From: an uncultured Winogradskyella sp.
GTDB taxonomy: Bacteria > Bacteroidota > Bacteroidia > Flavobacteriales > Flavobacteriaceae
Reading direction: 5' to 3'
DNA length: 64,000 bases
NCBI RefSeq assembly: GCF_947498005.1
Contig: NZ_CANMIW010000001.1
Location: 558,001 to 622,000 of the forward strand
Below the pieces are notes generated by a model, which made no database searches, was not told the DNA's origin, and saw only the letters and a program-made list of their open reading frames with translations. Position numbers and translations under genes: made by a program. Below are positions 6,459 to 30,125 of this stretch, in pieces; position 1 is the stretch's first letter, and each line of letters begins with the position of its first letter.

Positions 6459-6511
6459 TTTGTTTAGGTATCTAATAACCATATATTTGGTAAACCAATC
6501 TGGTAAACCAA
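6459..6511 (+). promoter_or_regulatory. Promoter with tandem FadR-type operators before PL17
   Basis: A Bacteroidota promoter is visible: TTTG at 6459-6462, a 19-bp spacer, then TATATTTG at 6482-6489. The palindrome TTGGTAAACCAA (6487-6498) begins inside the -7 box, and a second copy, TGGTAAACCAA (6501-6511), follows with a 13-bp period. A repressor bound here would cover the -7 element and the start point. The GntR regulator at 21160 is the best candidate. Confidence 0.8.
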
Positions 6512-6529
6512 TTCTAGAACTATAATATT

Positions 6530-8806
6530 ATGAAAATTAAATTATCCTTCAGTTTATCATTTGTCATTGTATCAATGCTTTTCTTGTTTTCATGTGCCAA
6601 TGAGAATAAAACCCAAACAGGTAATGACGATGAAAAAATTGCAAACAAGGAACATCCAAAACTTATTTTAACAGCTCAAGGTGTAAAAGATATTAGAGCG
6701 CAGTTAGGAACAATTCCAATTTTCGATAAATCTTTAGAAGCAGTTAAGGAAGAGGTTGATGCGGAAATTGAAGCAGGTATAGAAGTGCCTATTCCTAAAG
6801 ATTATTCAGGTGGTTATACACATTCTAGACACAAGCAAAATTGGTTTGTTCTCTATAAAGCTGGCTTATTGTATCAAATTTTAGATGATGAAAAATATGC
6901 CAAATATGTAAAAGATATGCTAATGGAATATGAGGCACTTTATAAAACTTTGCCATTACATCCAAAAACCAGGTCTTATGCAAGAGGAAAATTATTCTGG
7001 CAATGTTTAAACGATTCTAATTGGTTGGTCTATGTTAGTCAGGCTTACGATTGTATATATAATTATTTAACGGAAGAAGAGAGAAACAAGCTAGAGACTA
7101 ATTTATTTAGACCATTTGCAGATCATATCTCTGTAGACAGTCCGCAATTTTACCAACGTGTTCATAACCATAGTACTTGGGGTAATGCTGCAGTCGGAAT
7201 GATTGGTTTAGTTATGGATGATGAAGAATTAATCAATCGTGCTTTATACGGAATAAAAGATTTAAAATTAGACACAACTAAAAAAGATGATGATGGTGGT
7301 TTTCTAAACAAAGACGGAAAAGCTGGTTTTTTAGCAAACATAGAAGAGCCTTTTTCGCCAGATGGTTATTATAATGAAGGGCCATATTATCAACGTTACG
7401 CTATGTATCCTTTTTTAGTTTTTGCGGAAGGTTTGCACAACGTAAAACCAGAATTGAAAATATTTGAATATAAAGAAGGTGTACTTCTAAAATCTATAAA
7501 CGCGTTATTGAATTTATCAGATGCTGATGGCGATTTCTTCCCATTAAATGATGGTCAAAAAGGAATGTCTTATTATACAAACGCATTGGTAACTGCAGTT
7601 GATGTATCTTATCATTTTGGAGATCAAGATCCAGGTTTATTGTCAATAGCAAAGCAACAAGATAAAGTTTTATTAGACGATTCTGGTTTGGCGGTTGCCC
7701 TTGGTATTAAGAATGGAAATGAAAAGCCATTTACAAAAAAATCTATTAACTTATCTGATGGTCCAGAAGGAAAGCAAGGTGGTGTTGGTATATTGAGAAA
7801 CCAAGATATTGAATTGGTTTTTAAGTATGCATCACAAGGATCTAGCCACGGACATTATGATAAATTGTCTTATTCTTTATATGAAAAAGGAGAAGAAGTA
7901 ATTCAAGATTATGGATTATCTCGTTTTGTAAATATCGAACAAAAAGGTGGTGGTAATTACCTTAAAGAAAATAAAACTTGGGCAAAACAAACTATTGCAC
8001 ATAATACAGTAACGCAAAATGAAACTTCTCATTTTACAGGTAAATATGACATAGGAAGCTTACATCATTCAGATTTACAATATTTTTCTTCGGACAATGA
8101 TAATGTTCAAGTAGTAAGTGCAATTGAAAAAAATGCCTATCCAGGAACAACTATGCTCCGCACCATGGCAATCATTAAAGATGAAGATTTTGAGAAATCA
8201 TTTGTGTTAGACATAATGAAAGTGACTTCTGCCACTGCAAATCAATATGACTTTCCATTTTATTATTTTGGACAAGTATTACAAACAAATTTTAAATACA
8301 ATTCACCCGAAATATTAAAACCATTGGGTTCAAAAAATGGTTATCAGCATTTGTATTTAGAAGGATCAGGAAAAGCTTCAGATGAGAACACTAAGTTTTC
8401 TTGGTTCAGTAATGATAAGTTCTATTCATTAACAACAGTAACCAATACTAAAGATGAATTGATCTTCGCAAGAATTGGAGCAAATGATCCAGAATTTAAT
8501 TTACGTCGTGATCCTGCATTAATTCTAAGAGCAAAAAAATCAAAAAATAGAACCTTTGTTTCTGTTATAGAATCACACGGAAGTTATAGTGCAGTTTCAG
8601 AATCCGCTCTAAATTCAAAAAGTAATATTAAAGACATAAAAACAGTTTTAGATTCTGACGCGTACACGGCTATTTCAATTACTACTATTAATGGTAAAAC
8701 GAAGTTGTTTATAACCGCGAATACAAATACGTCTAAAGAAGTTAAGCATAATGTAAAAATTGATGATAAGAATTACGAATGGTCAGGTTCTTATTATTTC
8801 AATTAA
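6530..8806 (+). CDS. Exolytic oligoalginate lyase lipoprotein, family PL17
   Basis: This 758-residue protein should release unsaturated uronate monomers from alginate oligomers, probably in the periplasm. The signal ends in LFSC with Cys22 lipidated. The N-terminal (alpha/alpha) toroid carries NHSTWGNAAVG with Asn213/His214, and SPDGYYNEGPYYQRY near 276-290 supplies the catalytic tyrosine region. The heparinase II/III-like beta-sheet domain follows, with SHGHYDKLSYSLY and IAHNTVTQNE. Length and order match PL17 subfamily 2 enzymes such as Alg17C. It is followed 63 bp later by kdgF, whose substrate is the monomer released here. Its promoter carries the two-palindrome operator described above. 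Confidence 0.94.
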   Translation: MKIKLSFSLSFVIVSMLFLFSCANENKTQTGNDDEKIANKEHPKLILTAQGVKDIRAQLGTIPIFDKSLEAVKEEVDAEIEAGIEVPIPKDYSGGYTHSRHKQNWFVLYKAGLLYQILDDEKYAKYVKDMLMEYEALYKTLPLHPKTRSYARGKLFWQCLNDSNWLVYVSQAYDCIYNYLTEEERNKLETNLFRPFADHISVDSPQFYQRVHNHSTWGNAAVGMIGLVMDDEELINRALYGIKDLKLDTTKKDDDGGFLNKDGKAGFLANIEEPFSPDGYYNEGPYYQRYAMYPFLVFAEGLHNVKPELKIFEYKEGVLLKSINALLNLSDADGDFFPLNDGQKGMSYYTNALVTAVDVSYHFGDQDPGLLSIAKQQDKVLLDDSGLAVALGIKNGNEKPFTKKSINLSDGPEGKQGGVGILRNQDIELVFKYASQGSSHGHYDKLSYSLYEKGEEVIQDYGLSRFVNIEQKGGGNYLKENKTWAKQTIAHNTVTQNETSHFTGKYDIGSLHHSDLQYFSSDNDNVQVVSAIEKNAYPGTTMLRTMAIIKDEDFEKSFVLDIMKVTSATANQYDFPFYYFGQVLQTNFKYNSPEILKPLGSKNGYQHLYLEGSGKASDENTKFSWFSNDKFYSLTTVTNTKDELIFARIGANDPEFNLRRDPALILRAKKSKNRTFVSVIESHGSYSAVSESALNSKSNIKDIKTVLDSDAYTAISITTINGKTKLFITANTNTSKEVKHNVKIDDKNYEWSGSYYFN

Positions 8807-8869
8807 GATATATCATTTAGAGGGTTGTAAAAAATCTCAAAAAAGCAATAATTCAAAAATTAAATAAAA

Positions 8870-9247: not shown

Positions 9248-9367
9248 AGATTTATTTTATCCCATTTACTAATAGTTGTTAGCAAACTTATAGTCCATTA
9301 AGCCCTTAAGTTATTTACTATATTACCTTAAATATTAACTATTTTAACATATAAAATTTACGAAAAC

Positions 9368-9432
9368 GTTGTATTTAACAAATATTTATATATATTTGGT
9401 TTTCCAATCTGGTAAACCAATTTGGTTTACCA
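9368..9432 (+). promoter_or_regulatory. susC1 promoter with three phased FadR-type operators
   Basis: GTTG at 9368-9371, a 19-bp spacer and TATATTTG at 9391-9398 form the promoter. Three palindromes follow at a strict 13-bp period: TTGGTTTTCCAA (9396-9407, one arm degenerate), TGGTAAACCAA (9410-9420) and TTGGTTTACCA (9422-9432). The first overlaps the -7 box. CGAAAACGTT at 9361-9370, overlapping the -33 region, recurs before the T9SS gene at 30199. The rest of the 285-bp gap (9248-9532) is an AT-rich leader of about 100 bp with nothing else recognised. Confidence 0.8.
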
Positions 9433-9532
9433 GTAAAAAACTTTAAAAAGATTCTCATTTTATTACGTAAAATATGAGTCTTTACTATTAAAATAAACTA
9501 ATAATAAAACAATCTAATCTAAACAATGAATT

Positions 9533-12500
9533 ATGAATTTAAAATTTAAACTCATTACTGTTATTGCACTTTTCTTTAGTGTAGTAGCTTTTGCTCAAGA
9601 GGCATATACCGTATCAGGTGTAGTCACTGGAGCATCCGATAATATGCCCATACCTGGTGCAAATATTATTGTTGTCAATACAAGTAGAGGTACTTCTACT
9701 GACTTTGATGGTAAATACCAATTGGAAGTAAGCAAAGGCGATGTTCTTAAGTTTTCTTATGTTGGTTATGTAGCTCAAACTGTTACAATAGATAGTCAGA
9801 CTACTGTTAATGTTTCATTAGCCGAAGATGATAATTCATTAAGTGAAGTTGTTGTTGTAGGTTATGGAGCTCGTAAAAAAAGTGATGTAACTGGTTCTGT
9901 ATCTTCTTTGAAAAAGGAAGAATTAACTGCTTTTCCTGTATTGGAAGCAGAACAGGCACTTCAGGGACGTGCAGCTGGTGTAGTTGTTCAATCAAATAAT
10001 GGTGGTGAGCCAGGAGCACCAATTAAAATTAATATTAGAGGTAATACTTCAATTAATGCAAGTAGTGATCCCCTTATTGTTGTAGATGGTTTTGTGGGAG
10101 GTACAATGCCACAAGCTGGAGATATTGAATCACTTCAGGTTTTAAAAGATGCATCAGCAACGGCTATTTATGGTTCTAGAGGATCAAATGGTGTCGTATT
10201 AGTTACTACTAAGAAAGGTAGAAGTGGTAAATTGGTTGTAGAATTTAATTCTACATATTCAATTCAAAATACTGCTAATAGCTTAGATTTATTAAATGCT
10301 AGTGATTTTGCAGATTACCAAAATCAAATTAGAGCTAACCAAGGTAATACAACTCCATACGTACAAGGAGATTACGATACGGATTGGCAAGATTTAATCT
10401 ACAGAGCTGGTAGTACTTCAAATAACCAAGTTTCTTTCTCAGGAGGTTCTGAAAAAGTTAATTATTATGCTTCAGGTACTTATTTCCAGCAAGATGGTAT
10501 CTTAGTTAACTCTGGATACGAGAGAGTTTCTTTCTTGTCTAATCTTGATGCACAAGTTACTGATAAGTTAAAAGTAGGTCTTAACTTAAACGGTCGTATG
10601 AGTAAAAAAGATGGAGTATCTACTCAATCCAATGGATCAGTTACTGTGGGTGGTGATGATGTTGTTTCTTTAGCAATGCGTTTCGCACCAGACAAAGGAA
10701 TCTATAATGATGACGGAACTTTTTCAACAAATGATTTAATTGGTGATGAGGTAGATAACCCATACGCGGTTGCTACACAAAGAGATGATGATACTGAAAT
10801 AGAAGATTTTAGAGCGAATTTTTATGCAAACTACGAAATTATTGAAGGTCTTGCATTTAAAACAACTTTCGGTTTAAGTAATAAGAATGAGTTTAGAGGA
10901 ATATACATGCCTAGAACTTTAGCTGTTACAGCTGGTAGAGGCTTAGATGGTAGAGCTATCATGTCAGAAGATAAAACTAAAACTATTTTAAGTGAAAACT
11001 ACTTAACGTACAATAAAGAAATAGGAAAAGGTAATTTAACTTTATTAGCAGGATATTCTTACCAAAAAACAGTTAGAAAAGGGTTTTACAGCGAAGGTAC
11101 TGGTACTATATCAGATTCATTCTCTTACTACGGTTTATGGACTGCTACTAATTTAATTAATGGTGGATCAGGAGATATCTATGAAACTGAAACTGAAATT
11201 CAATCTCAATTTGGTAGATTAAACTACGATTATGATGATAAATACTTATTAACTGCTACAGTAAGACGTGATGGTGCATCTAACTTTGCTGAAAATGAAA
11301 AGTATGCAATTTTCCCTTCAGCTGCGTTTGGTTGGAAAATTTCAAATGAAGATTTCTTAAGTGATAATGAAACTATCTCTAACTTAAAATTCAGAGCCAG
11401 TTATGGTCTTACAGGTAACCCATCAATTGGTGCTTACGAATCGTTAGCAAGTTTAGCTAGTATTTATGCGTCTAGTAATGGTGGAACTGTACCGGCTATT
11501 ACGCCAAACCAACCTTCTAACCCAGATCTTAAATGGGAAACATCTTACCAATCTAACTTTGGATTAGATATAGGTTTATTTAACAGTAAAGTTTCTTTAT
11601 CATTAGATTATTATAACATTGATACTAAGGACTTAATCATGGTTGATAGAGGATTACCTTGGTATTTAGGTTTCTACAATGATCAAATATTGAAAAATGT
11701 TGGTGAAATAAATAACAAAGGATTTGAAATTTCTTTAAATACTAGAAATATTACTAACGATAACTTTAGCTGGTCTACAGATTTAGTGTTCGCTACTAAT
11801 AAAAACTCTGTAACAACATTAATTAATGGTGATGATTATTTCCAAAATGGTGCGCCAAGTTATTTTAGTGTAAATAACACGGCTATCTTAAGAGAAGGTG
11901 AAGAAGTAGGTTTATTCTACGGATATGATTATGCAGGTGTCTTCCAAGGAGGTGCGTTACCAGCCGGTACAGCTACATTGCCAGGAGCTTCAGCAGGAGA
12001 TCCATTATTTGCTGATATAGATGGAAGTGGTGATATTACTAACGATGACCAAACAATTATCGGTAATCCAAACCCAGATTTTACTTGGGGTATTACAAAC
12101 AACTTTTCGTATAAGAACTGGGATTTAAATGTCTTTTTCCAAGGTTCTCAAGGAGGTGAGATTTTTAACATGACTAATGTGCAGTTAAATAACGGTGATG
12201 CTAATACAACTTATGATTATTACAATAGTGCTTGGACGGCTGCTAGCCCTAACACTGATCAACCTCGTGTAGGGAATAACAGTTTTAGAGAAATTTCTTC
12301 TCGTTTCGTAGAGGACGGTAGTTATATCAGATTAAAAAACATTGCTGTTGGTTACTCTTTCCCTACAGAAATGATTGAAAAATTAGGAATTGAAAACCTA
12401 AGATTAACACTTAGTGCACAGAATCTATTAACGATTACAGATTATTCTGGTTTAGATCCTGAGGTTAACTATTATGGCTCTGCTGGTGATAATAATACAG

Positions 12501-12583
12501 CAAGTAATACGGTTAGAGGTTTTGATTTTGGAAATTACCCGACAGTTAAATCGGTGAGTTTTAGTCTAAATGTGAAATTTTAA
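9533..12583 (+). CDS. susC: SusC-like TonB-dependent outer-membrane transporter 1
   Basis: This 1016-residue protein should import alginate oligosaccharides across the outer membrane using TonB energy. The signal peptide ends at AFAQ. A CarboxypepD_reg-like domain spans about 25-105 (VSGVVTGASDNMPIPGANI to VNVSLAEDD), then the TonB-box-like SEVVVVGYGARKKSDVTGSV, the plug (LIVVDGFVGG, LKDASATAIYGSRGSNGVVL) and a 22-strand barrel ending VSFSLNVKF. SusD1 follows 45 bp later. The first 110 residues are nearly the same as in SusC2 (14431), while plug and barrel differ strongly, so the two pairs probably take different oligomers. Confidence 0.97.
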   Translation: MNLKFKLITVIALFFSVVAFAQEAYTVSGVVTGASDNMPIPGANIIVVNTSRGTSTDFDGKYQLEVSKGDVLKFSYVGYVAQTVTIDSQTTVNVSLAEDDNSLSEVVVVGYGARKKSDVTGSVSSLKKEELTAFPVLEAEQALQGRAAGVVVQSNNGGEPGAPIKINIRGNTSINASSDPLIVVDGFVGGTMPQAGDIESLQVLKDASATAIYGSRGSNGVVLVTTKKGRSGKLVVEFNSTYSIQNTANSLDLLNASDFADYQNQIRANQGNTTPYVQGDYDTDWQDLIYRAGSTSNNQVSFSGGSEKVNYYASGTYFQQDGILVNSGYERVSFLSNLDAQVTDKLKVGLNLNGRMSKKDGVSTQSNGSVTVGGDDVVSLAMRFAPDKGIYNDDGTFSTNDLIGDEVDNPYAVATQRDDDTEIEDFRANFYANYEIIEGLAFKTTFGLSNKNEFRGIYMPRTLAVTAGRGLDGRAIMSEDKTKTILSENYLTYNKEIGKGNLTLLAGYSYQKTVRKGFYSEGTGTISDSFSYYGLWTATNLINGGSGDIYETETEIQSQFGRLNYDYDDKYLLTATVRRDGASNFAENEKYAIFPSAAFGWKISNEDFLSDNETISNLKFRASYGLTGNPSIGAYESLASLASIYASSNGGTVPAITPNQPSNPDLKWETSYQSNFGLDIGLFNSKVSLSLDYYNIDTKDLIMVDRGLPWYLGFYNDQILKNVGEINNKGFEISLNTRNITNDNFSWSTDLVFATNKNSVTTLINGDDYFQNGAPSYFSVNNTAILREGEEVGLFYGYDYAGVFQGGALPAGTATLPGASAGDPLFADIDGSGDITNDDQTIIGNPNPDFTWGITNNFSYKNWDLNVFFQGSQGGEIFNMTNVQLNNGDANTTYDYYNSAWTAASPNTDQPRVGNNSFREISSRFVEDGSYIRLKNIAVGYSFPTEMIEKLGIENLRLTLSAQNLLTITDYSGLDPEVNYYGSAGDNNTASNTVRGFDFGNYPTVKSVSFSLNVKF

Positions 12584-12628
12584 TCGTATATTTTAGAAAA
12601 AAACAGTTTTAATTAAAAAGAAAAAATT

Positions 12629-14149
12629 ATGAAGACTTTTAAAATTTTAATGTTATTGATAATGGGATTGTCAATAATGGGATGTTCAGATTTAGAAGAA
12701 GAGCCTGTTGGTTTATTATCGCCAGATGGTTTCTTTACATCTACTCAGGATATTCAAACCGCTATAGATGGTTCCTTAACACATGCTATTAACGAAGAAA
12801 TTTGGGGAAGAAAACTTTCTATTGCATTGATGTTACGTTCTGATATGGTTAACCTTCAATCTACTCAAACACGTAGAGTTGAAATGGATACACATACAAT
12901 TACAGGTGATAATGAAATGGTATATGATCCATGGACTAGAATTTATTTAGGAATTGCAGCAGCAAATAATGCCATTGCAGGTGCTGAGGATGTAGCGGTT
13001 GATGAAGCTGTTAAAAACCCAGTTACGGCACAAGCTTATTTTGCTAGAGCGTTTTATTATTTTCATTTGGTAAGACTTTTTGGTGATGTTCCTTACATTG
13101 ATACTCCAGTTGATGATATCGGAGCAGCTAGTTCTCTAAGTAATACACCTGAATCTGAAGTATATGATAGAATAATAGCAGATTTACAATGGGCTAAAAC
13201 TTGGTTGCCAAATACACAGGCTTCTAGATCTATACCTTCTAAAGGAGCGGCAAGTTCTTATTTAGCACTAGTATATTTAACTAGAGCAGGAACAAGTGAT
13301 ATGACTTATTTCCAAATGGCATATGATGAAGCTTATGAAGTAATTCAGAATGCAGGGACTTATAATTATGCTTTAGATCCAGATTTTCAAACGTTATTTA
13401 ATGCTAATAAAATTGATAACTCTATAGAGCCAATTTTCGCATTAGATTATAACAATGTAGAAGCTCCAGATAATGCATATGATCAAATATCTCCAATGTG
13501 TGGTATTAGAGGTGATGACGGATGGTCTGTTGCTGTGCCTACAATGGCTGTTTACCAATCATTTGATGCAGATGATTATAGAACACGTGTAAGTTTCCAA
13601 ACAGAAGCTACTATTAATGGTACTACAGTAGATTTTACTCAGTTTGATATTAGTGGACATGAGCATGCAGCAAACCAGCCTTATATGGCAAAGTACTCTC
13701 GTTATCCAGGAGAATTTGCGAGAGGTAGTAAGAGAGCAACAAGTCATAACTATTCTATGATGCGTTATGCAGAGGTTTTATTGATTGCTGCAGAAGCAGG
13801 AGTTGAAGTAGGAAGCCCATTAGCTCTTGGTTTTCTTAACGAAGTAAGAGGTAGAGCAAGAAATGGTGGTGAAACGACTAATGGTGGTTACGTTGAAGAA
13901 ACAGTAGCAGCTAGTGCAGTTCCTGCTGATCTTGGTTCAATTACTGTTGCAGATGTTCTTGAAGAACGTAGAATTGAACTTGCATTCGAATGTAAGAGAT
14001 GGTATGACATCAAAAGAAGACAATTAGGAGACCAGGTTTTTAGTGCTTCAGGTTATGAGGGAGCGAAACCAGAATGGAACTCAGCTGTTGATTACGATAC
14101 TCCAATCCCACAGGATGAGATTGATAGAAATCCTAATTTAACGAATTAA
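12629..14149 (+). CDS. susD: SusD-like surface glycan-binding lipoprotein 1
   Basis: This 506-residue lipoprotein (Cys19 after SIMG) should form the lid of SusC1 and capture alginate oligomers. The N-terminal SusD region (DLEEEPVGLLSPDGFFTSTQDIQTAIDG) and TPR-like helices with AYFARAFYYFHLVRLFGDVPYI are clear, as is the C-terminal RagB/SusD block with VLEERRIELAFECKRWYDIKR. The gene ends in IPQDEIDRNPNLTN, a typical SusD tail. It lies directly after susC1 and is followed by a strong terminator, so susC1-susD1 is a two-gene operon. Confidence 0.96.
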   Translation: MKTFKILMLLIMGLSIMGCSDLEEEPVGLLSPDGFFTSTQDIQTAIDGSLTHAINEEIWGRKLSIALMLRSDMVNLQSTQTRRVEMDTHTITGDNEMVYDPWTRIYLGIAAANNAIAGAEDVAVDEAVKNPVTAQAYFARAFYYFHLVRLFGDVPYIDTPVDDIGAASSLSNTPESEVYDRIIADLQWAKTWLPNTQASRSIPSKGAASSYLALVYLTRAGTSDMTYFQMAYDEAYEVIQNAGTYNYALDPDFQTLFNANKIDNSIEPIFALDYNNVEAPDNAYDQISPMCGIRGDDGWSVAVPTMAVYQSFDADDYRTRVSFQTEATINGTTVDFTQFDISGHEHAANQPYMAKYSRYPGEFARGSKRATSHNYSMMRYAEVLLIAAEAGVEVGSPLALGFLNEVRGRARNGGETTNGGYVEETVAASAVPADLGSITVADVLEERRIELAFECKRWYDIKRRQLGDQVFSASGYEGAKPEWNSAVDYDTPIPQDEIDRNPNLTN

Positions 14150-14318: not shown

Positions 14319-14370
14319 TTTGATTTAACAAAAAAATAACATACATTTGGTAAACCAATCTGGTAAACCA
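14319..14370 (+). promoter_or_regulatory. susC2 promoter with tandem FadR-type operators
   Basis: TTTG (14319-14322), a 19-bp spacer and TACATTTG (14342-14349) match the Bacteroidota promoter exactly. TTGGTAAACCAA (14347-14358) overlaps the -7 box and TGGTAAACCA (14361-14370) follows at the 13-bp period. The layout is the same as before PL17, where the 24 bases from TTGGTAAACCAA onwards are almost identical. Confidence 0.82.
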
Positions 14371-14430
14371 GTTAGTAATAGGTTTAAAGTGAGGTAAATG
14401 CTAAATAACTAACTAATCTAATATTTAAAC

Positions 14431-17400
14431 ATGAATTTAAAAATAAGGTTAACAACGATTTTTGCTTTGTTTTTTTGTGTATCGCTTATCGCACAAGAAA
14501 AGTATTCAATAAGCGGAACCGTAACTTCTGCAGGAGATAATATGCCTATTCCAGGAGCTAACATCATCATTGTTAAAACAACCAGAGGAACCTCTACGGA
14601 TTTCGATGGTAAATACCAATTAGAAGTAGCTAAGGGTGATGTTGTTCAATTTTCTTATGTAGGTTATGTAACTCAAACATTTATAATTGATAGTCAAAAG
14701 ACTATTGATGTTTTGCTGGTTGAATCAGATAACTCTCTGAGTGAGGTAGTTGTTATTGGTTACGGAACACAAAAGAAAAGTCATACAACAGGTGCTATTT
14801 CTAAAGTAGTAAATGATGATTTAGGTCAAATAGCCGTTTCTAGGGTAGATGATGCCTTAGTTGGTCAGGTTTCAGGTGTTAATATACAAGCTACAGATGG
14901 TGAGGCTGGTGCTGCACCAACAATCACAATTCGTGGTGTTGGTTCAATGGCTGGTGATTCTACACCATTAATTGTTGTCGATGGTGTTATTGTTGATTCA
15001 GATTTTTTAGGATCTTTAAATATGAATGATGTAGAATCTTTTGAGATTTTAAAAGATGCCGCCTCTTCTTCTATTTATGGTTCAAAAGGATCTAATGGTA
15101 TTATAATGATAACAATGAAATCTGGTATAGAAGGGAAGACTAAAATTAGTTATAATACATATACTGGTTTTAAAGACGCCAGAAAAAGTGATGCTTATGG
15201 TTATACCACTACTGAATGGGCAGAGCAACAAATGGAAGAAAACGGTGTAGTTTCTATTTATACACAAGCACAATTGCAAACAGGTACAGATCGTTCTTGG
15301 CAAGATGTTTTTTTTGATGGAGGTGCTATTACAAGTCATGCACTTTCTTTAAGAGGTGGTAATAAAAGCACAAAATATACAGCTAGTTTAAATTATTCTG
15401 ATGATGAAGGTGTGTTGTTAGGAGATAATTATACAAAATATGGTATTAGACTAAAAGTTGATAATAAAATAAATGATAAATTTTCAGTTGGTGTAAATTT
15501 AAGTCCGTCGTATACAGATAGAGATAGGTTTTCAGAATCTGTACATAATGTTGCCAGACATCAACCTTGGTTGCCAATTTATCATACAGAGGCTACCTTA
15601 CAAATGGTAAATCCTGAATCTTTTCCAGGTTTGCAAGTTGGGGATTACGCAAGACAAGATCACTTTACAATATTTGATTTAGATGGAGATGGTTTAGTTA
15701 ATGACGAGCTTAACAATATTGGTAATAGTACAAATCAGAATCCTTACGGCAGAACTACAGAGAGAAGCAGAGTAGATAAAAAGTTTAAGATGTTTGGAAG
15801 CGTATATGGTAAATATAAAATAGCTTCTGGACTAAATTTTACGACAACTTTATCAGGATCAATTCAAGATACTAAAAGAACGGATTATTTAGGTACTTTA
15901 GCTCGTAGAACCGTAGCTTCTGCATATATGGTAGAAACTAGCCAGAAAGAACAATACTATATTTTTGATAACTTTTTAAATTATAGTAAAACGTTTGGTA
16001 AACATGAGTTAGGAGTGACTTTAGGTAATTCAATTGAAACAAGAGATTATTTCTTTTCTACAATAAAGGGTATTGGTTTTGAAAACGATGCAGTACAACA
16101 AATTTCTGGAGCAACAGAGATTGTATCTGGCGAAACATATGGGCTAGAATGGAAAAAAAGAGGTGTGTCTTTGATTTCACGATTAACTTATGCATATGAT
16201 GACAAATACTTATTATCTTTAAGTATGCGTCGTGACGGAAGTTCAATTTTCGGATCGGATTTTAAATATGGTAATTTTCCTGCGGCATCTGTAGGTTGGA
16301 ATATTGCTAAAGAGAGTTTCTTAGAGGATAGCGACTTTGTTTCAACACTTAAATTTAGAGCCAGTTTTGGTGTAACAGGTAATGATAGACTAAACACAGG
16401 AAGTGTAAATCCAGATGCTCAAGGTAGTAGTTCTGTTTTAAGCTCTGATAATGTGTTACAAGATTATTATCCGCACTTGGCATTATTAGATTTAACATCT
16501 TATGTGGTCGACGGAACAATTACTACAGGTTACTCGCCATTAAATCTAGCAAACCCTGAGCTAAAATGGGAACGATTAATTGAAATTAATCCAGGGATAG
16601 ATTTTGGATTCTTAAATAATAAAATTACAGGATCAATTGATTGGTACCAAAGAACTAGTGACCAGTTATTATTAAACAATCCAGTATCTGCAACAACAGG
16701 ATTTAATAGTGCTTTAGTTAATTTGGGTGAAGTAAAGAATGAAGGATTCGAGTTTGAGTTAAGAACTAGAAATATTAATTCTGAAAAATTCACATGGAAA
16801 ACGTCGATTATAGCTACTACGAATGAAAATACATTAATTGATTTTGCTGATTCAGATGGTCAAGTTACGAGTTTAGATCCATCACGACCAGCAGAATGGA
16901 TTAATCAAGAAGGGCAACCAATATCTTCTTTTTATGGATACGTAGTAGATTCTGAAGTGCCAATTGAATATAGAGATAGACCTTACAGACATGTTGGTAA
17001 CGAGTTTGGTTTAGTTAGAGTGAAGGATTTAAATGGTGATGGTGTTTTAGATGATGAAGATAAAACGATATTAGGTAATCCTTACCCAGAATTAATTTGG
17101 AGTTTAACTAACGATTTTTCTATAGGTAACTTTGATTTTTCATTTATGTTTCAAGGATCACATGGTGCAGAAGTAAGAAATATTGGAGATCATTATTTGT
17201 TTAGTCATAATAACAACAGAACATTAAATGCAGAAGCTGCAACAGCAGGATATGAAACAGACTTCTTAGTAGATAAATACTTCACTAACAGTATGATACA
17301 GGATGCATCGTATATTGCATTAAGAAATGTGAATATTGGTTACAATTTACCTAGCGATGTAGTTACTAAGTTTGGTATATCTAAATTTAGAGTTTATGCA

Positions 17401-17553
17401 TCAGGTCAAAATTTAATGTATAAAACAGCGGATGGTTATACAGGTTGGAATCCAGAAGCTTTAGATAAAACAAGTCCTACACAATACGGATACCAAAGAG
17501 GTGGATCTCCAATTTATAGAACCATATCAATAGGTTTAGACGTAGACTTTTAA
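14431..17553 (+). CDS. susC: SusC-like TonB-dependent outer-membrane transporter 2
   Basis: This 1040-residue protein is the second oligosaccharide importer of the locus. The signal peptide ends near LIAQ; a CarboxypepD_reg-like domain follows to about residue 105, then SEVVVIGYGTQKKSHTTGAI, the plug (PLIVVDGVIVDSDF, LKDAASSSIYGSKGSNGIIM) and the barrel ending SIGLDVDF. It heads a four-gene operon with susD2, a PKD lipoprotein and a secreted PL7, which is the commonest arrangement of core alginate loci in marine Flavobacteriia. The N-terminal domain is nearly that of SusC1, but the rest is divergent, which argues against a recent whole-gene duplication. Confidence 0.97.
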   Translation: MNLKIRLTTIFALFFCVSLIAQEKYSISGTVTSAGDNMPIPGANIIIVKTTRGTSTDFDGKYQLEVAKGDVVQFSYVGYVTQTFIIDSQKTIDVLLVESDNSLSEVVVIGYGTQKKSHTTGAISKVVNDDLGQIAVSRVDDALVGQVSGVNIQATDGEAGAAPTITIRGVGSMAGDSTPLIVVDGVIVDSDFLGSLNMNDVESFEILKDAASSSIYGSKGSNGIIMITMKSGIEGKTKISYNTYTGFKDARKSDAYGYTTTEWAEQQMEENGVVSIYTQAQLQTGTDRSWQDVFFDGGAITSHALSLRGGNKSTKYTASLNYSDDEGVLLGDNYTKYGIRLKVDNKINDKFSVGVNLSPSYTDRDRFSESVHNVARHQPWLPIYHTEATLQMVNPESFPGLQVGDYARQDHFTIFDLDGDGLVNDELNNIGNSTNQNPYGRTTERSRVDKKFKMFGSVYGKYKIASGLNFTTTLSGSIQDTKRTDYLGTLARRTVASAYMVETSQKEQYYIFDNFLNYSKTFGKHELGVTLGNSIETRDYFFSTIKGIGFENDAVQQISGATEIVSGETYGLEWKKRGVSLISRLTYAYDDKYLLSLSMRRDGSSIFGSDFKYGNFPAASVGWNIAKESFLEDSDFVSTLKFRASFGVTGNDRLNTGSVNPDAQGSSSVLSSDNVLQDYYPHLALLDLTSYVVDGTITTGYSPLNLANPELKWERLIEINPGIDFGFLNNKITGSIDWYQRTSDQLLLNNPVSATTGFNSALVNLGEVKNEGFEFELRTRNINSEKFTWKTSIIATTNENTLIDFADSDGQVTSLDPSRPAEWINQEGQPISSFYGYVVDSEVPIEYRDRPYRHVGNEFGLVRVKDLNGDGVLDDEDKTILGNPYPELIWSLTNDFSIGNFDFSFMFQGSHGAEVRNIGDHYLFSHNNNRTLNAEAATAGYETDFLVDKYFTNSMIQDASYIALRNVNIGYNLPSDVVTKFGISKFRVYASGQNLMYKTADGYTGWNPEALDKTSPTQYGYQRGGSPIYRTISIGLDVDF

Positions 17554-17585
17554 TTAATAAATAAACTATTTAATACGATTTTATT

Positions 17586-19016
17586 ATGAAATTTGTAAAA
17601 TATATAGCTGTCCTTTTTATAGGAGTATTGGCATCATCTTGTAGTGATTTCTTAGATCCAAAACCAAATTCAGCGTCAACTTCTAATAATTATTATACAA
17701 CTTTAGCAGAGCTTGAATCAGCATTAATTGGAGCTTATGATGCTATACAGGGAGATGGTAGTTACGATAGAGATGAAAATCATGGTGTACAATACGAATT
17801 TTATATCACAGAGATGAGAAGTGGTAACAGTTCTACTAAAATTGCAGATGCAGATGATTTTTCTGATTCTGGTCAATTTGAATCTTTCAGTGTACTTGCA
17901 ACCAATGGTATAGTTGCTAATTATTACGATAGTTTTTATCAAGTTATTTTTAGAGCGAATGTTGTTTTAGAAAATTTAGGAAACGTTAGCGAAGATACAT
18001 CTGCAATTGAAGCAGAGGCCAAGTTTATTAGAGCTTACGCTTATTTTAACTTAGTAAGGTTGTTTGGAGATATTCCTTTAGTAGATCATGTACTTACAGC
18101 ATCTGAGACAGATACTCAATTTATAAGAGTAGATAAGAATCTAGTTTACGATCTTATTATAAGTGATTTAGAAACAGCTAAAGATGGTTTAGATAACACG
18201 TATAAAACCAGAGCGTCAAAAGCGGCGGCTCAAGGTTTATTAGCTAAGGCTTATTTATCAATAGAAAATCCTGAGTATCTTAAGGCTCAGATACTATGTG
18301 AAAGTATTATTAATAGCCAAGAGTTTGATTTAGTAAACTTTTATGATGTTTTTTATTCAGAATTAAATGATGAAATTATCTTTGCAATTGGGTATCAAAC
18401 AATTGATGATAGTCAAAACTTTTCTGCACAATGGATGAATGCTGTAGGAAGATCAAGTGGTCTAAATTATGCAACTTATGATTTAGTAGGAGATTTAGAT
18501 CTATATGGTGGTGACAGAACACAATTTACTTATAGACAAGATCCTATTCACTTAACTTCAGTGAGATATCAATGTGCTAAATATTTCCCTGATGGTGATG
18601 ATGGAGGAGACACAGGTGAGTTTACTGGAAACCCAGAATTGGCAGGTAATGACTGGATTGTTTTACGTTATGCTGATATATTGCTGTTGTACGCAGAAGC
18701 AATTATGGCTGGAGGACAAGAAACTAATAATGCGGCAGCATTAAATGCTTTTCAATTAGTACGAAATAGAGCAGGTCTTACAGATGTGGTGACTAATTTA
18801 ACTAAAGAAGAGTTATTATTAGAAAGAAGGGTAGAATTAGCTTTTGAAAATCATAGGTTGTTTGATTTGGTACGATTCGGAGAAGCAGAAACGACGCTTT
18901 CGGCTTATTCAGAACTTAATGGATTTGGTTATACAACATCAGATTTATTATTACCAATGCCTCAAAATGAAGTAAATCTAAGTAATGGTTTAATGAGTCA
19001 GAATCCTGGTTACTAA
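17586..19016 (+). CDS. susD: SusD-like surface glycan-binding lipoprotein 2
   Basis: This 476-residue lipoprotein (Cys19 in ASSC) pairs with SusC2, whose gene ends 32 bp upstream. The SusD N-terminus (DFLDPKPNSASTSNNYYTTLAELESAL), the helical AKFIRAYAYFNLVRLFGDIPLV block and the C-terminal RNRAGL...ELLLERRVELAFENHRLFDLVRFG segment are all present, and the end NEVNLSNGLMSQNPGY is typical. It should bind alginate oligomers at the cell surface. It differs clearly from SusD1, in line with separate ligand preference of the two pairs. Confidence 0.96.
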   Translation: MKFVKYIAVLFIGVLASSCSDFLDPKPNSASTSNNYYTTLAELESALIGAYDAIQGDGSYDRDENHGVQYEFYITEMRSGNSSTKIADADDFSDSGQFESFSVLATNGIVANYYDSFYQVIFRANVVLENLGNVSEDTSAIEAEAKFIRAYAYFNLVRLFGDIPLVDHVLTASETDTQFIRVDKNLVYDLIISDLETAKDGLDNTYKTRASKAAAQGLLAKAYLSIENPEYLKAQILCESIINSQEFDLVNFYDVFYSELNDEIIFAIGYQTIDDSQNFSAQWMNAVGRSSGLNYATYDLVGDLDLYGGDRTQFTYRQDPIHLTSVRYQCAKYFPDGDDGGDTGEFTGNPELAGNDWIVLRYADILLLYAEAIMAGGQETNNAAALNAFQLVRNRAGLTDVVTNLTKEELLLERRVELAFENHRLFDLVRFGEAETTLSAYSELNGFGYTTSDLLLPMPQNEVNLSNGLMSQNPGY

Positions 19017-19041
19017 ACATATTAATTTAATACATTTTAAA

Positions 19042-20067
19042 ATGAAAAATATTAATAGAATAAAAAAACAGGTAAAAAATAAGTTAGTTGGTGCGTTACT
19101 CATAGTGGCTTGCATTACTACAATTGCTTGTGACCCTACAATTGATTCTTTAGCATTTGATTTGCCAGATGCTAATTCACAGGAAGATTTAACACCTCCT
19201 GCAGCTGCATTTACAGCATCTGTTACAGCAGATTATTTAACATATACTTTTGCTAATGAATCTACAAGTGCTACAACATATGCATGGGATTTTGGTGATG
19301 GTAACAGTTCAACATCTGTAGATGGTTTAAACACATATCCAGACGAAGGCACATATACTGTAACGTTGACGGCATCAGATGCATTAGGCGCTGTGAATAC
19401 TTACACCGCGGAGGTTGTAGTAGAGGAGCCAGAAGCACCACCAGTTTTAGATCCTACATTGGTAAATGCAGATTTTGTAAAATTACCTAAATCTTCAGGT
19501 TCGGATTGTGCATGTGCTGCTTGGATAAATAAGAGTATAGGAGATCAAGGAGAATCAAGTTCAGGTAATGGATCAGATGTTCTGAAATTTGATAATAACG
19601 AACCAGATGCTATATACCAAGAGTTCGAAGTAGTACCAAATGCTAATTATTTGATAACAGTGGTTTCATCTTTTAAGAGTTTAGAAAGTGGCGGATTATA
19701 CCCAAGTGAGTTAGAATTAAGAATTTTAGCAGGTACTGGTTATACAGATGGATATACACCTGTTTACTATACAGATACGGTAGATTTTCCACAAGGAAAC
19801 AGTGATTCAGGATTTTGGGGATATACATCTATTGCGCAAGTAGAAGACGAAGCAAATAATCTTCTGATAAGAGTAGAAGACAATCCTAGTGATACAAGTT
19901 ACTTATCGTATCAATATTCATTTAATTCTGGAGCTAATACAAGTGTAGCATTATTTATGAGAGGATTAGGTGGTCCTGCAACTGGTGGAGCTGGTGGAGA
20001 CTTTGGATATAATAGTGGAGATGAAGAGATTCGTACAGATTCAATTGTTATAACAGCTTTAGATTAA
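19042..20067 (+). CDS. PKD-domain surface lipoprotein, probable alginate-binding protein
   Basis: This 341-residue protein sits where SusE/SusF-type surface binding proteins are found. The signal ends ITTIAC (Cys30), after an unusually long basic N-region. A PKD domain covers about 52-128 (YAWDFGDGNSS, GTYTVTLTASD). The C-terminal domain (about 139-341) opens with PKSSGSDCACAAWINK, with Cys156 and Cys158, then DQGESS, and ends with GDEEIRTDSIVI. The same domain, with the same opening and closing motifs, makes up the secreted protein at 30199. Glycan binding is an inference from position and the beta-rich pattern. No catalytic motif was recognised. Confidence 0.8.
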   Translation: MKNINRIKKQVKNKLVGALLIVACITTIACDPTIDSLAFDLPDANSQEDLTPPAAAFTASVTADYLTYTFANESTSATTYAWDFGDGNSSTSVDGLNTYPDEGTYTVTLTASDALGAVNTYTAEVVVEEPEAPPVLDPTLVNADFVKLPKSSGSDCACAAWINKSIGDQGESSSGNGSDVLKFDNNEPDAIYQEFEVVPNANYLITVVSSFKSLESGGLYPSELELRILAGTGYTDGYTPVYYTDTVDFPQGNSDSGFWGYTSIAQVEDEANNLLIRVEDNPSDTSYLSYQYSFNSGANTSVALFMRGLGGPATGGAGGDFGYNSGDEEIRTDSIVITALD

Positions 20068-20092
20068 ATTTCAGAGTAATAAATCATTAATT

Positions 20093-21016
20093 ATGAATTT
20101 CATTAAAATTTCAGTCTTCATTTTTATCGCTTGCTTCTATACTAATGGTATTGATGCTCAGAATATTTCTGAAAATGAAACTGAAATATCTGATAAAAAA
20201 GTTGATAAGAAGAAAAAAAAGAAAAAGAAAAAAAAGAAGAAGGTTAAACTTCCAAAAATTGATTTAAGTCACTGGAAAGTTACATTACCAGTTACTAATG
20301 AAAAAGGAAAACCTTATGAAATAGATCCGCCAGAGATTTTAGATTTTGCAGATAATGAAATAGCAAAACCATATATGTACATAGACTCAACAAAAGGCGC
20401 TATTGTATTTCATGCGATGCCAACGGAATCTAAAACTAGGAATACTAAGTATACGAGATCTGAGCTAAGAGAGCAAATGGTACCTGGTGAAAATAATGTG
20501 AACTGGACATTTGCAGATGGTGCAAATATGAAGGGGAAGATTCAAATGGAGGAAGTGACAAAGGATGATGAAGGTAAATACCATCGTGTTATTATTATGC
20601 AAATCCATGGAAGATTAACTAATGAACAGAGAGATTTAATAGGTGAGGACGATAATAATGCACCACCAATATTAAAAATTTATTGGGATAAGGGTAAAAT
20701 TAGAATTAAATCTAAAGTGTTAAAAAACCTTGCAGCTTCAGATACTGAAATTTTACATGAAGATGCTTGGGATAATGATGAAGGATACAATTTTGAACAA
20801 GAAGTTGGTTTCAGAAAATTTACATTAGAAGTTCAAGTTACTGATGGTAAAATGTTGATAATTTTAAATGATACAGAATATAAAGCTTACGAGGGCATCC
20901 ACATAAAAAAGTGGGGAATATTCGAGAATTACTTTAAAGCAGGAAACTATTTTCAGTCTAGAGATGAAGGCGCTTATGCTAAAGTTAGATTTTACGAATT
21001 AGAAGTAAGTCATTAA
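20093..21016 (+). CDS. Secreted alginate lyase, family PL7, with poly-lysine linker
   Basis: This 307-residue protein is a second PL7 endolyase, unlike the lipoprotein at 884. The signal peptide probably ends at GIDA-Q (residues 1-22). Residues 35-52 are almost all lysine, with 12 in a row at 39-50, before the catalytic domain starts at LSHWKVTLPV. The PL7 signatures RSELREQM, QIHGR and YFKAGNYFQS are all present. There is no lipobox of normal spacing and no T9SS tail, so it is periplasmic or released. It is the last gene of the susC2 operon. The AAA/AAG repeat coding for the linker is a possible slippage site. Confidence 0.93.
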   Translation: MNFIKISVFIFIACFYTNGIDAQNISENETEISDKKVDKKKKKKKKKKKKVKLPKIDLSHWKVTLPVTNEKGKPYEIDPPEILDFADNEIAKPYMYIDSTKGAIVFHAMPTESKTRNTKYTRSELREQMVPGENNVNWTFADGANMKGKIQMEEVTKDDEGKYHRVIIMQIHGRLTNEQRDLIGEDDNNAPPILKIYWDKGKIRIKSKVLKNLAASDTEILHEDAWDNDEGYNFEQEVGFRKFTLEVQVTDGKMLIILNDTEYKAYEGIHIKKWGIFENYFKAGNYFQSRDEGAYAKVRFYELEVSH

Positions 21017-21041
21017 AGTTTATTTGAGTTAGTCGCTTATT

Positions 21042-21077
21042 GAATTCTGCCGTTGATTAGTTGTGCAGGTGGAATTC
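21042..21077 (+). terminator. Stem-loop after the PL7 gene, weak terminator
   Basis: GAATTCTGCC (21042-21051) pairs with GGTGGAATTC (21068-21077) over ten positions including two G-T pairs, with a 16-base loop. Only three T follow, so termination would be weak; it may instead stabilise the upstream mRNA. Confidence 0.4.
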
Positions 21078-21095
21078 TTTAAGCACTATTAAATA

Positions 21096-21113
21096 ATCTT
21101 ATATTTATAAGAT
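21096..21113. promoter_or_regulatory. Inverted repeat in the promoter of the GntR regulator gene
   Basis: ATCTTATA-TT-TATAAGAT is a perfect 18-bp inverted repeat 47 bp before the regulator start codon. No TTGGTAAACCAA copy is present here, so the regulator may not repress its own gene through the same site as its targets. Confidence 0.4.
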
Positions 21114-21159
21114 ATATTGCACAATATTAATCGTGTAATTAAAAATTAAAAATTTAGAT

Positions 21160-21864
21160 ATGAAATTGGAAATGCTGGCAAAAATGGAAAGTTTAGATTC
21201 GCAGAACGCTATTATTTCTAAAATAAGAGATTTAATAAATTTAAAAAATCTTGAACCTGGTGATAAACTGCCTTCAGAGCGAACATTATCAGAGAAGTTT
21301 GGAGTTACTAGAAGTAATGTTAGAGAAGCAATTCAAAAATTAGAATTTTATGGGTTGCTAGATTCTATTCCTCAAAGTGGAACTTTTGTTGCAAACATTG
21401 GTGTCATAGCTATGAATGGAATGATCGACGATATTTTGAGACTAGAAACACCAGATTTTAAATCTTTAGTAGAAACAAGAATTTTATTAGAGCTTAAAAC
21501 TGTTAGATTAGCTGCGCTGAGAAGAACGAATGAAGATTTAAAGGAAATAAAGAATGCATTAGAAGCATATGCTGCAAAAGTTTTGGACGGTAAGGATGCA
21601 GTGCAAGAAGATTTATTGTTTCATTTGGCCATTGCAAAAGCTAGTGGTAATAGCTCAATGAACACATTTATGTTAACTATAACTCCTGAGATAATCACTA
21701 ATTTTGAAAAGTATCACGTATGTGATAAGAATCGAGCTAATGTAGGGATTGATGAACATAAGGCTATTTATAATGCTATTAAGGCTCAAAATCCAAAATT
21801 AGCGAAACAAAAAATGAAAGAGCATTTTAACGAGCTGTATAAATATTGTTATAATATTAAATAA
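21160..21864 (+). CDS. FadR-subfamily GntR regulator of alginate use
   Basis: This 234-residue regulator has a winged helix at about 14-80 (DKLPSERTLSEKFGVTRSNV, REAIQKLEFYGLL, SGTFV) and an all-helical FCD effector domain at about 95-230, the FadR layout. FCD domains often bind acids or keto-acids through a metal, so KDG or a related sugar acid is a plausible effector. A FadR-type repressor of alginate genes, AusR, has been described in Zobellia galactanivorans and this is probably its counterpart. FadR-family operators are palindromes with GT...AC cores, fitting the TGGTAAACCA sites at four promoters of this locus. It is 24 bp before the transporter gene. The first ATG (21160) was used; Met5 and Met9 are alternatives. 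Confidence 0.9.
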   Translation: MKLEMLAKMESLDSQNAIISKIRDLINLKNLEPGDKLPSERTLSEKFGVTRSNVREAIQKLEFYGLLDSIPQSGTFVANIGVIAMNGMIDDILRLETPDFKSLVETRILLELKTVRLAALRRTNEDLKEIKNALEAYAAKVLDGKDAVQEDLLFHLAIAKASGNSSMNTFMLTITPEIITNFEKYHVCDKNRANVGIDEHKAIYNAIKAQNPKLAKQKMKEHFNELYKYCYNIK

Positions 21865-23190: not shown

Positions 23191-23240
23191 TTACAATTAG
23201 AACATAAAATTAAACAAGAATAATTTAAGATTTATTAAAC

Positions 23241-24002: not shown

Positions 24003-24023
24003 TAAAATAGATTTTAAAATATT

Positions 24024-24057: not shown

Positions 24058-24130
24058 CATGATTAAAAATTGATGTAAATTCTAGGATTTGATAATATTC
24101 AACAATACGAATATGGGTAAATTCAAAAAT

Positions 24131-25150: not shown

Positions 25151-25157
25151 GTTTTTA

Positions 25158-25210
25158 TATATTTGCTTAATCGATTAAGCAAATATACTGTTTTAACCAA
25201 AAAAATCAAA
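25158..25210 (-). promoter_or_regulatory. lacI promoter with a perfect 30-bp palindromic operator
   Basis: Bases 25158-25187 form a perfect 30-bp palindrome with core TTGCTTAATCGATTAAGCAA and the central CG typical of LacI operators. Its right end doubles as the minus-strand -7 box TATATTTG (25187-25180), with TTTG at 25210-25207 exactly 19 bp upstream. The repressor would therefore cover its own promoter. The palindrome also shows TATATTTG on the plus strand at 25158-25165. Confidence 0.85.
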
Positions 25211-25243
25211 ATTAGAACGTTTTGATTTTATTTTTTAAATCAA

Positions 25244-25263
25244 TTGCTTAAACGATTAACCAA
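25244..25263 (+). promoter_or_regulatory. Second LacI operator before kdgK
   Basis: TTGCTTAAACGATTAACCAA is an imperfect copy of the palindrome at 25158, with two mismatched pairs and the same central CG. It lies 35 bp before the kdgK start codon. TTTG at 25221-25224 is a possible -33 element 19 bp before it, though the -7 box is poor. The two operator centres are about 81 bp apart, allowing looping. Confidence 0.7.
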
Positions 25264-25298
25264 ACATAAATTTATAACTAAATAAACAAATATTCAGA

Positions 25299-26345: not shown

Positions 26346-26370
26346 TTTTCAATTTCGTTCTTTTAAAATT

Positions 26371-27588: not shown

Positions 27589-27607
27589 AAAAAATAAACA
27601 TAAAATT

Positions 27608-28276: not shown

Positions 28277-28279
28277 CAA

Positions 28280-28798: not shown

Positions 28799-28819
28799 AT
28801 TTGCAATTTGTAAAGACAT

Positions 28820-29887
28820 TTATTCAACTATACATTTTAAAATTTTAGACCCATCGTTATTTCGAGATAGGCAAATGAAATATATTCCTGTTTCTAAACC
28901 AGACAGATCTATGACTTCATTTTTTAAACGATAGGTTAGTTCAATTTCTTTCCCTGTATTATCAAACATTTGGATAGTATCAAAGTAATTAATTTCTAAT
29001 TTTTTTATTGTGACACTATTTTGAGATGGATTAGGCACTAATTGCAATTCAGTATTTTCCAATTCAACATTTGGGTTAGATAGGAGATCAATTTCTTCAA
29101 TACTAAAATCATTAAAAAGTACATTTTCGTCTCTGAGATCATTACTATTATTTAGACTCCTATAGATGCCCCATTTTGGTCTTGCAAATGATGCACCATC
29201 TTGCCAAGTATCCATTGACGTATTATTATAACTTAATAGATTAGAATTATCTGAAATACGGACAACATCAATAGCATATCTTCCATTGTTGCCATAGGTT
29301 ATTTGCTCCGTAACTTCTATCCAATGCCCTCTAAAATTATCTAATTCTGCCGTTACTATAGTACTTTGGCTATTTGTTGTTGAATAACGAAGTTCTATTC
29401 TATCAGGATTAGCTTTACGAGCTGTAAGTGTAATAAGTGGAATAGATGCATATGCACCATCCACTGATTTAATTTGATGCAAGTGTGTAAAACTCGAAGA
29501 AGGCTGAAAATTAATATCTAATTTAAATTTCCATTTGTATTCTACCGTTTCACCTTCTATGGCTTTTAAATTATCAGGAGAAGAACTATACGTCTTAATT
29601 TCGGTTCGTTGTCGATCAAAGTTAATACATCTGTCATTATCTGGTGTTTTGTGTGCTATAAATCGAAATACGTTTGTATTTAATTCAGTGTCAAATATCT
29701 CATCAATATGTCTACCAAAATTAGTGTGTTCACAATCAGGAACTTCTACGGCATTATATCCAGGTGCGAAAACATTATTAATAATTTCATAGGTAGAGCC
29801 AGGTCCATCCGCACTCAATACAACTTGTGCTCTAACTAAATTCATGAAATTAAAAATTATCATAATCAGAATTATTCTTGAATTCAT
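28820..29887 (-). CDS. T9SS-secreted jelly-roll polysaccharide lyase (PL20-like)
   Basis: This protein (355 residues from the ATG at 29887; an in-frame ATG at 29947 would add 20 residues before a normal signal peptide, so the inner start is preferred) has a signal ending VRA-Q. The catalytic region carries FDRQRTEIKTY, SSSFTHLHQIK and ARPKWGIYRSL...LRDENVLF. These blocks resemble jelly-roll lyases of the PL20 glucuronan-lyase and related Pfam polysaccharide-lyase type. From about residue 275 a type A T9SS sorting tail follows (VPNPSQNSVTI, GLETGIYFICL, KCIVE). It is divergent from the T9SS protein at 30199, which has FadR-type operators between. Substrate may be polymannuronate or glucuronan; I cannot tell. 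Confidence 0.65.
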   Translation of the reverse strand: MNSRIILIMIIFNFMNLVRAQVVLSADGPGSTYEIINNVFAPGYNAVEVPDCEHTNFGRHIDEIFDTELNTNVFRFIAHKTPDNDRCINFDRQRTEIKTYSSSPDNLKAIEGETVEYKWKFKLDINFQPSSSFTHLHQIKSVDGAYASIPLITLTARKANPDRIELRYSTTNSQSTIVTAELDNFRGHWIEVTEQITYGNNGRYAIDVVRISDNSNLLSYNNTSMDTWQDGASFARPKWGIYRSLNNSNDLRDENVLFNDFSIEEIDLLSNPNVELENTELQLVPNPSQNSVTIKKLEINYFDTIQMFDNTGKEIELTYRLKNEVIDLSGLETGIYFICLSRNNDGSKILKCIVE

Positions 29888-30066
29888 TACACTGTCTTTT
29901 AATGAGTAAACTAAATTATAATGTAGAGATATTTTTTTGATGTACATATTACACAGTGCTGAATTGAATCTATTTATTTGTTAATTATATGCGTAATAAA
30001 TAAAACTCCCTATAAATAATTACTGCTCTATGTTAAAATAAATACATTTATTAAGAATTCTACAAT

Positions 30067-30125
30067 CGAAAACGTTATCGCTTATGATTTTTTATTATAT
30101 TTGGTTTACCAATTTGGTAAACCAA
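30067..30125 (+). promoter_or_regulatory. Promoter with tandem FadR-type operators before the T9SS protein
   Basis: TATATTTG at 30096-30103 is the -7 box; the -33 region is CGAAAACGTT (30067-30076), a 10-bp block also present at 9361-9370 before susC1. TTGGTTTACCAA (30101-30112) overlaps the -7 box and TTGGTAAACCAA (30114-30125) follows at 13 bp. The same sites lie 215-240 bp upstream of the divergent lyase gene. The rest of 29948-30198 holds no further recognised element. Confidence 0.8.

Follow-up and report, generated by a model that had tools for sequence, protein, structure and literature searches.

Tandem palindromes overlapping the -7 boxes of alginate promoters in a Winogradskyella genome as probable operators of an AusR-type repressor

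Four promoters in the alginate utilisation locus of an uncultured Winogradskyella sp. carry short palindromes that lie on the -7 box itself and repeat downstream of it. Which protein reads these palindromes, and what does their spacing signify? The window analyzed here is a stretch of 64,000 nucleotides (C1:558001-622000) of a draft genome of 3.88 Mb in 46 contigs. At all four sites a TTGGTnnACCAA-type palindrome overlaps the Bacteroidetes -7 box TAnnTTTG, the TTG belonging to both, and is succeeded by one or two more copies with a period of exactly 13 base pairs (bp). We regard it as very likely, from sequence comparisons, that the four arrays are operators of an AusR-type, FadR-family repressor encoded at 21160, which would block transcription at its start.

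Tandem palindromes at the alginate promoters

The four arrays, all on the plus strand, are as follows.

6482..6511, +, promoter/operator of a PL17-type oligoalginate lyase gene: -7 box TATATTTG at 6482-6489; copies at 6487-6498 and 6500-6511; -33 TTG at 6460-6462
9391..9433, +, promoter/operator of susC1/susD1: -7 box at 9391-9398; copies at 9396-9407, 9409-9420 and 9422-9433; -33 TTG at 9369-9371
14342..14371, +, promoter/operator of susC2-susD2-PKD-PL7: -7 box TACATTTG at 14342-14349; copies at 14347-14358 and 14360-14371; -33 TTG at 14320-14322
30096..30125, +, promoter/operator of a gene for a secreted protein sorted by the type IX secretion system (T9SS): -7 box at 30096-30103; copies at 30101-30112 and 30114-30125

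A first-pass annotation of this DNA had placed four arrays with an exact 13-bp period at -7 boxes starting at 6482, 9391, 14342 and 30096, and direct reading of the sequence confirms them. It had also described the box as running into the palindrome; the two elements do overlap, but by sharing the TTG rather than by abutting. Copy 1 at susC1, TTGGTTTTCCAA, departs from the consensus. At 6460, 9369 and 14320 a TTG at the position of the -33 element begins exactly 22 bp before the -7 box, whereas the promoter at 30096 has TTA one base nearer to the box. TTG also stands 22 bp before the box in 49 of the 96 fused arrays from relatives.

Downstream of the arrays lie the following target genes, where polysaccharide lyase (PL) family numbers are a reading of Pfam names.

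6530..8806, +, PL17-type oligoalginate lyase (PF07940, PF05426; the NCBIfam oligoalginate lyase model scores below its cut-off)
9533..14149, +, SusC1 and SusD1
14431..21016, +, operon of SusC2, SusD2, a PKD protein and a PL7 lyase (PF08787)
30199..31119, +, secreted protein with a T9SS sorting tail

Chance does not generate such arrangements in sequence of this composition. Across 300 randomised versions of the window from a first-order Markov model, the exact palindrome TGGTnnACCA occurred 0.6 times on average and 13-bp pairs were absent, as compared with 12 palindromes and four exact 13-bp pairs in the real window. The whole genome holds five exact tandem patterns, all in the alginate cluster: four are in the window and one is 2.4 kb before it. 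This fifth array is likewise fused to its box and precedes a PL7 lyase gene just outside the window (L117:7542-7571). Allowing one mismatch adds an unlinked array on another contig (L118:4412-4434), before a gene for a chondroitinase-B/PL6-type lyase with a T9SS tail. The reversed pattern, which with reversed sequences served as the control throughout, gave no match in this genome, either exactly or with one mismatch. At up to three mismatches the tandem pattern gave 24 matches against 25 for the control, the signal being drowned as expected. The fused pattern TANNTTTGGTNNNCCA has ten exact matches in the genome, five of which are these arrays; with one mismatch, the fused single-copy pattern matched 100 times on one strand and 94 times on the other, and the control 112 and 109 times.

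The exact and one-mismatch tandem sites of this genome are thus confined to alginate genes. The suggestion that the motif could serve as a search pattern for the regulon is borne out by the PL7 and chondroitinase-B/PL6-type lyase promoters found outside the window, and no such site lies before an unrelated gene. Two other matches were set aside. The one two-mismatch tandem site of this genome, at C4:338546, falls within a coding frame and was rejected as an operator, and a single palindrome at 54296, in a long gap before a ribonucleotide reductase gene, was left as a chance occurrence, having one copy and no fused -7 box.

No recognised catalytic domain was found in the secreted protein encoded at 30199-31119. 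Assigned by best match, its family is preceded by an AusR array here and by seven arrays in the 80 relatives' loci described below. The protein is a candidate for a new alginate-active or alginate-binding protein.

The layout was then measured in the best 80 of 383 loci that encode a relative of the 21160 protein (1.57 Mb in total). An array was defined as at least two copies at 13 bp, each with at most one mismatch and one of them exact. This definition yielded 114 arrays from the 80 loci and three stretches of the own genome; none lies within a long reading frame, and 112 have the start of a reading frame at most 350 bp away. The fused form TANNTTTG stands on the sense strand in 101 of 112 arrays and on the antisense strand in one. 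Over 254 copies the consensus reads YTGGTWAACCAR with A or T as the next base, and its TGG and CCA hardly vary.

Copy number differs among promoters, from one (at ausR genes of relatives) to two, three or four, and the first-pass annotation had read it as a dial that sets the tightness of repression, with the three-copy susC1 promoter the tightest. The composition of the arrays makes this unlikely. Of the 106 arrays in the 80 loci, those with more copies carry poorer ones: 56 of the 66 two-copy arrays consist wholly of exact copies, as against 10 of the 40 with three or more, a difference that the detection rule exaggerates. The commonest three-copy pattern is weak-strong-weak (15/40), and the off-consensus copy in the window belongs to susC1 itself. 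SusC promoters have two copies in 37 cases, three in 34 and four in one; since two and three are about equally frequent, number may instead compensate for weaker copies.

The spacing is strict. The 80 loci contain 281 exact TGGTnnACCA palindromes. Where two neighbours are separated by 80 bp or less, the distance is 13 bp in 85 cases, 26 bp in 9 and never any other value; in the reversed sequences there are 38 palindromes, of which no two lie within 60 bp of each other. When the second partner was allowed one mismatch and both pair orders were counted, 283 of 293 offsets up to 60 bp were multiples of 13. A period of this kind could be a relic of the duplication of a 13-bp unit, with no functional phasing: the arrays run head-to-tail, and slippage could lengthen them. 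We consider this improbable, since the period is kept before PL17, PL7, PL6-type, SusC, T9SS protein and ausR genes over many genera although the spacer letters between copies vary (ATC 53, ATT 45, GTT 14, AAT 11, GAT 9, and others), and since exact pairs show no distance besides 13 and 26 bp.

The regulator encoded at 21160

The gene within the alginate locus whose product best accounts for the arrays is the following.

21160..21864, +, AusR-type repressor: GntR winged helix PF00392 (E=1.9e-18) at residues 16-77; FCD effector domain PF07729 (E=8.2e-26) at residues 103-224

The protein is 93% identical to its counterpart in Winogradskyella eckloniae. FCD domains have a metal-site motif of the form D-x3-H, H, H, and D151, H155, H200 and H222, which fit it, are invariant in 23 aligned orthologues. 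The AlphaFold model is of modest quality (mean predicted local distance difference test score 70, with 45 residues under 50). Its Foldseek matches are GntR/FCD structures, the best at E 6.3e-9; a template modelling score of about 0.47 and root-mean-square deviations of 11-14 mean that the domain orientation is not reproduced by the model.

The tie between this protein and the arrays was assessed in 397 evenly drawn genomes of the family, with AusR presence cut at E<=1e-45, a threshold chosen in this analysis, and with counts tallied by eye from tables. AusR is present in 103 genomes. At one mismatch, at least one 13-bp tandem hit occurs in all 103 of these, as compared with 15 of the 294 genomes that lack AusR. 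The 15 single-hit genomes are at background, because the reversed pattern matches in 24 of the 397. At least two hits, which may be two steps of a single three-copy array, occur in 102 of 103 AusR genomes and in none of the 294 others (Fisher p about 1e-95, kinship ignored). A gap-tolerant exact scan matched 111 of the 397 genomes; AusR is present in 98 of these and absent from 13. Twelve of the latter 13 have no 13-bp site at one mismatch, and each of the five AusR genomes that lack an exact pair has one-mismatch 13-bp sites. The exact 13-bp site of one AusR-less genome, G154, was rejected as a coding chance match, as it lies inside a SusC-like reading frame. In a phylum-wide sample of 395 genomes, exact sites were found in 10. 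All 10 belong to the 41 sampled members of this family, the coding match in G154 being one of the 10; none of the 354 genomes from outside the family has such a site. The own genome encodes no second GntR protein resembling 21160 at E<=0.01. Taken together, these distributions uphold the assignment of the arrays to the 21160 protein, which is very probably their cognate AusR-type repressor; AusR of Zobellia was compared by its published description.

A different binder is suggested by the cluster itself, in which a gene for a LacI-type protein (24131) lies beside kdgK; the LacI-type protein might bind the arrays while the GntR protein acts elsewhere. This is very improbable. The LacI-kdgK intergenic regions hold sites of their own, with at least one exact TGCTTAAWCGWTTAAGCA in 21 of 25 examined, and a LacI match at E<=1e-80 was obtained in just 18 of the 37 AusR-bearing genomes searched, which were drawn from 40 of the 80 loci, whereas AusR and the tandem pattern occur together in 103 of 103. 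In the window, the intergenic region between the LacI gene and kdgK (25158-25265) contains two LacI-type operators, TGCTTAATCGATTAAGCA and TGCTTAAACGATTAACCA, 81 bp apart. Both begin inside a TAnnTTTG box on the minus strand, an operator-in-box layout in another repressor family.

The ausR promoters of relatives carry the same palindrome in a different arrangement. Within 220 bp before ausR in the 80 loci, a single exact palindrome was found in 41, an array in 7, a one-mismatch site in 6 and none in 26. The centre is TA in 39 of the 41 single palindromes, and in 36 of the 41 the distance from the start of a preceding box to the start of the site is 18-20 bp. The box was sought with a loose pattern (like TAnnTTTA, TAnnTTTG or TAnnTTA), for which 10 of 41 show further matches and 3 show none. 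Copy 2 of the arrays has this same register, at 19 bp. Such promoters resemble arrays that lack the copy on the -7 box, an arrangement that would allow leaky autoregulation.

Several observations weigh against the reading of the arrays as operators of the 21160 protein. When one partner may carry a mismatch, 10 of the 293 palindrome pairs up to 60 bp apart do not fit the 13-bp lattice, and the exact fused -7 box is missing in 11 of 112 arrays; six of these exceptions are PL17 promoters that read TATATTGG, with the box one base short. The counts from the 80 loci are not independent, because all are alginate neighbourhoods of related species. The PL6-type site of the own genome has no good -7 box, so its promoter may be weak or in another register. 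No operator was found before the own ausR gene (21010-21160), as against 54 of 80 relatives with an exact, one-mismatch or tandem site there; transcription of the own ausR may come from the array promoter at 14342. Finally, cooperativity is less secure, as the protein has no long N-terminal extension of the NanR kind: only about 15 residues precede the helix-turn-helix (HTH) domain (the match begins at residue 16) and the N-terminus is short in 23 of 23 aligned orthologues.

Predicted mode of repression

The -7 element of Flavobacterium johnsoniae extends from -12 to -5, and transcription starts 4-5 nucleotides further on (PMC6847099). Placed on this scale, copy 1, which overlaps the TTTG half of the -7 box, would lie at a predicted -7 to +5, with its centre 1-3 bp before the predicted start; copy 2 would fall at about +7 to +18 and copy 3 at about +20 to +31. 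When alginate is absent, AusR dimers would bind each 12-bp palindrome. Copy 1 covers T-7, T-6 and G-5, which are read by sigma, and repressor and sigma binding should therefore exclude each other. A dimer on copy 1 would block melting as well as sigma access; those on copies 2 and 3 would prevent promoter clearance, and each would probably steady the dimer next to it. Release of AusR from its operators would be brought about by an intermediate of alginate breakdown.

A 13-bp step at 10.5 bp per turn corresponds to a calculated rotation of about 86 degrees between adjacent copies. The earlier proposal that adjacent dimers sit on different faces of the helix is in keeping with this geometry, while their presence on the DNA at the same time is a separate matter: simultaneous occupancy, like the start site, cooperativity, the identity of the effector and action in this organism, is something that we infer.

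That the repeats act instead in the transcript, as leader hairpins or an RNA-level switch, is scarcely credible: a start 4-5 nucleotides after the -7 box would place copies 2 and 3 in the 5' leader, and inverted repeats could pair in RNA, but copy 1 straddles the predicted start and would be half untranscribed, array occurrence tracks one DNA-binding protein, and the single sites at ausR mostly hold the copy-2 register.

A second element at -33 and comparison with known systems

Two of the four promoters carry a further element upstream of the AusR arrays.

9362..9373, +, second element GAAAACGTTGTA, containing the -33 TTG of the susC1 promoter
30068..30079, +, second element GAAAACGTTATC, in the -33 region of the 30199 promoter

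This element (ACGAAAACGTTNTA or ACGAAAACGTTG) overlaps the -33 region at a near-fixed distance from alginate -7 boxes, also in loci L205-L210. Of the 106 arrays in the 80 loci, 26 have AAAACGTT at -28 (25 arrays) or -27 (1 array) from the start of the -7 box, where it abuts or covers the -33 TTG; these loci contain 132 copies of AAAACGTT in all, counting both strands. The own genome has two places where GAAAACGTT is followed by a -7 box after 17-22 bp, both AusR arrays, and a gap of 14-26 bp admits a third, on contig C10, which is not an array. Sixty genomes of the genus gave 56 places with AAAACGTT plus a box against 24 for the reversed control (summed by eye). All nine places that were opened, picked by look rather than at random from five genomes, are immediately followed by an AusR array belonging to an alginate gene. 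Among the remaining 47, some have a 20-bp spacing and several appear coding-like by eye; two are the AusR arrays of the own genome. The nine opened places do not support AAAACGTT as a general promoter element.

The centre of the second element is CG, like that of a LacI-family operator. The LacI protein 24131 was nevertheless rejected as its binder: an orthologue is missing from many genomes that bear the element, and its own operators differ. Within the 80 loci both LacI and AAAACGTT are present in 11, the element only in 12, LacI only in 13 and neither in 44 (p=0.03, a weak association). No AAAACGTT-like sites were found upstream of the LacI gene in 24 loci, and the AAAACGTT-like site of the window at about 25211-25227 is therefore probably a chance match.

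The operator of E. coli FadR has TGGT...ACCA half-sites with three bases between them, and FadR binds fatty acyl-CoA. AusR operators share these half-sites, and the two proteins share the winged-helix fold (structures 1hw2, 1h9t); the half-sites here are separated by two bases rather than three, and the effector of FadR is fatty acyl-CoA.

The AusR alginate regulon of Zobellia galactanivorans was reportedly described by Dudek et al. 2020 (doi 10.1093/nar/gkaa533). According to two other sources, AusR represses most Zobellia alginate genes through single, double or triple operators and is released by degradation products (PMC7874173, PMC8286568); the regulon is also treated in PMC8073546. The system described here is alike in having a GntR repressor in the alginate locus and such operators at alginate promoters, and the operator numbers match: two and three copies in the window and a single copy before ausR in 41 of 80 relatives. 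It differs in genus, and in that the family-wide 13-bp rule, the frequency of -7 fusion and the copy-2 register at ausR are measured here. In the literature searched, represented by partial texts and with the original AusR paper (Dudek et al. 2020) outside its scope, no statement of a 13-bp spacing or a -7 overlap for AusR was found, and we claim no priority for either. The layout is a well-supported further instance of the AusR alginate regulon, its rule now measured across a family sample.

Crowding of dimers on adjacent repeats is also seen with E. coli NanR, where a 32-residue N-terminal extension couples dimers on (GGTATA)3 (PMC8012715). NanR is likewise an FCD-type GntR repressor of a sugar-acid regulon with two or three dimers on adjacent repeats. 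It differs in its direct GGTATA repeats and N-terminal extension, where AusR has palindromic YTGGTWAACCAR units at 13 bp and only about 15 residues before the HTH. Overlapping sites of the LacI family have a preferred centre distance of 13 bp in 110 operons, with peaks at 13, 22 and 32, a preference left unexplained there (PMC4052901). That DNA-binding family is unrelated, and 13 bp is one of three peaks for its sites, whereas it is the sole base period between exact sites here.

A broader scheme can be put forward tentatively, though we think it rather doubtful. AusR dimers may sit in two registers only, centred on the start or 13 bp further on, with extra copies continuing the lattice and a CG-centred, LacI-like operator on the -33 box in one genus group; the 13-bp lattice itself may be a general packing rule for unrelated repressor families, brought about by shared distortion of the DNA and not by protein contacts.

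For the family, the search pattern separates genomes with the AusR regulon from the others (102/103 versus 0/294), and members of the regulon, including unlinked lyases and secreted proteins, can therefore be listed from sequence alone. For the old puzzle of palindromic operators crowded at 13 bp, the AusR arrays offer a clean test, in which a single protein and a single strict spacing are involved.

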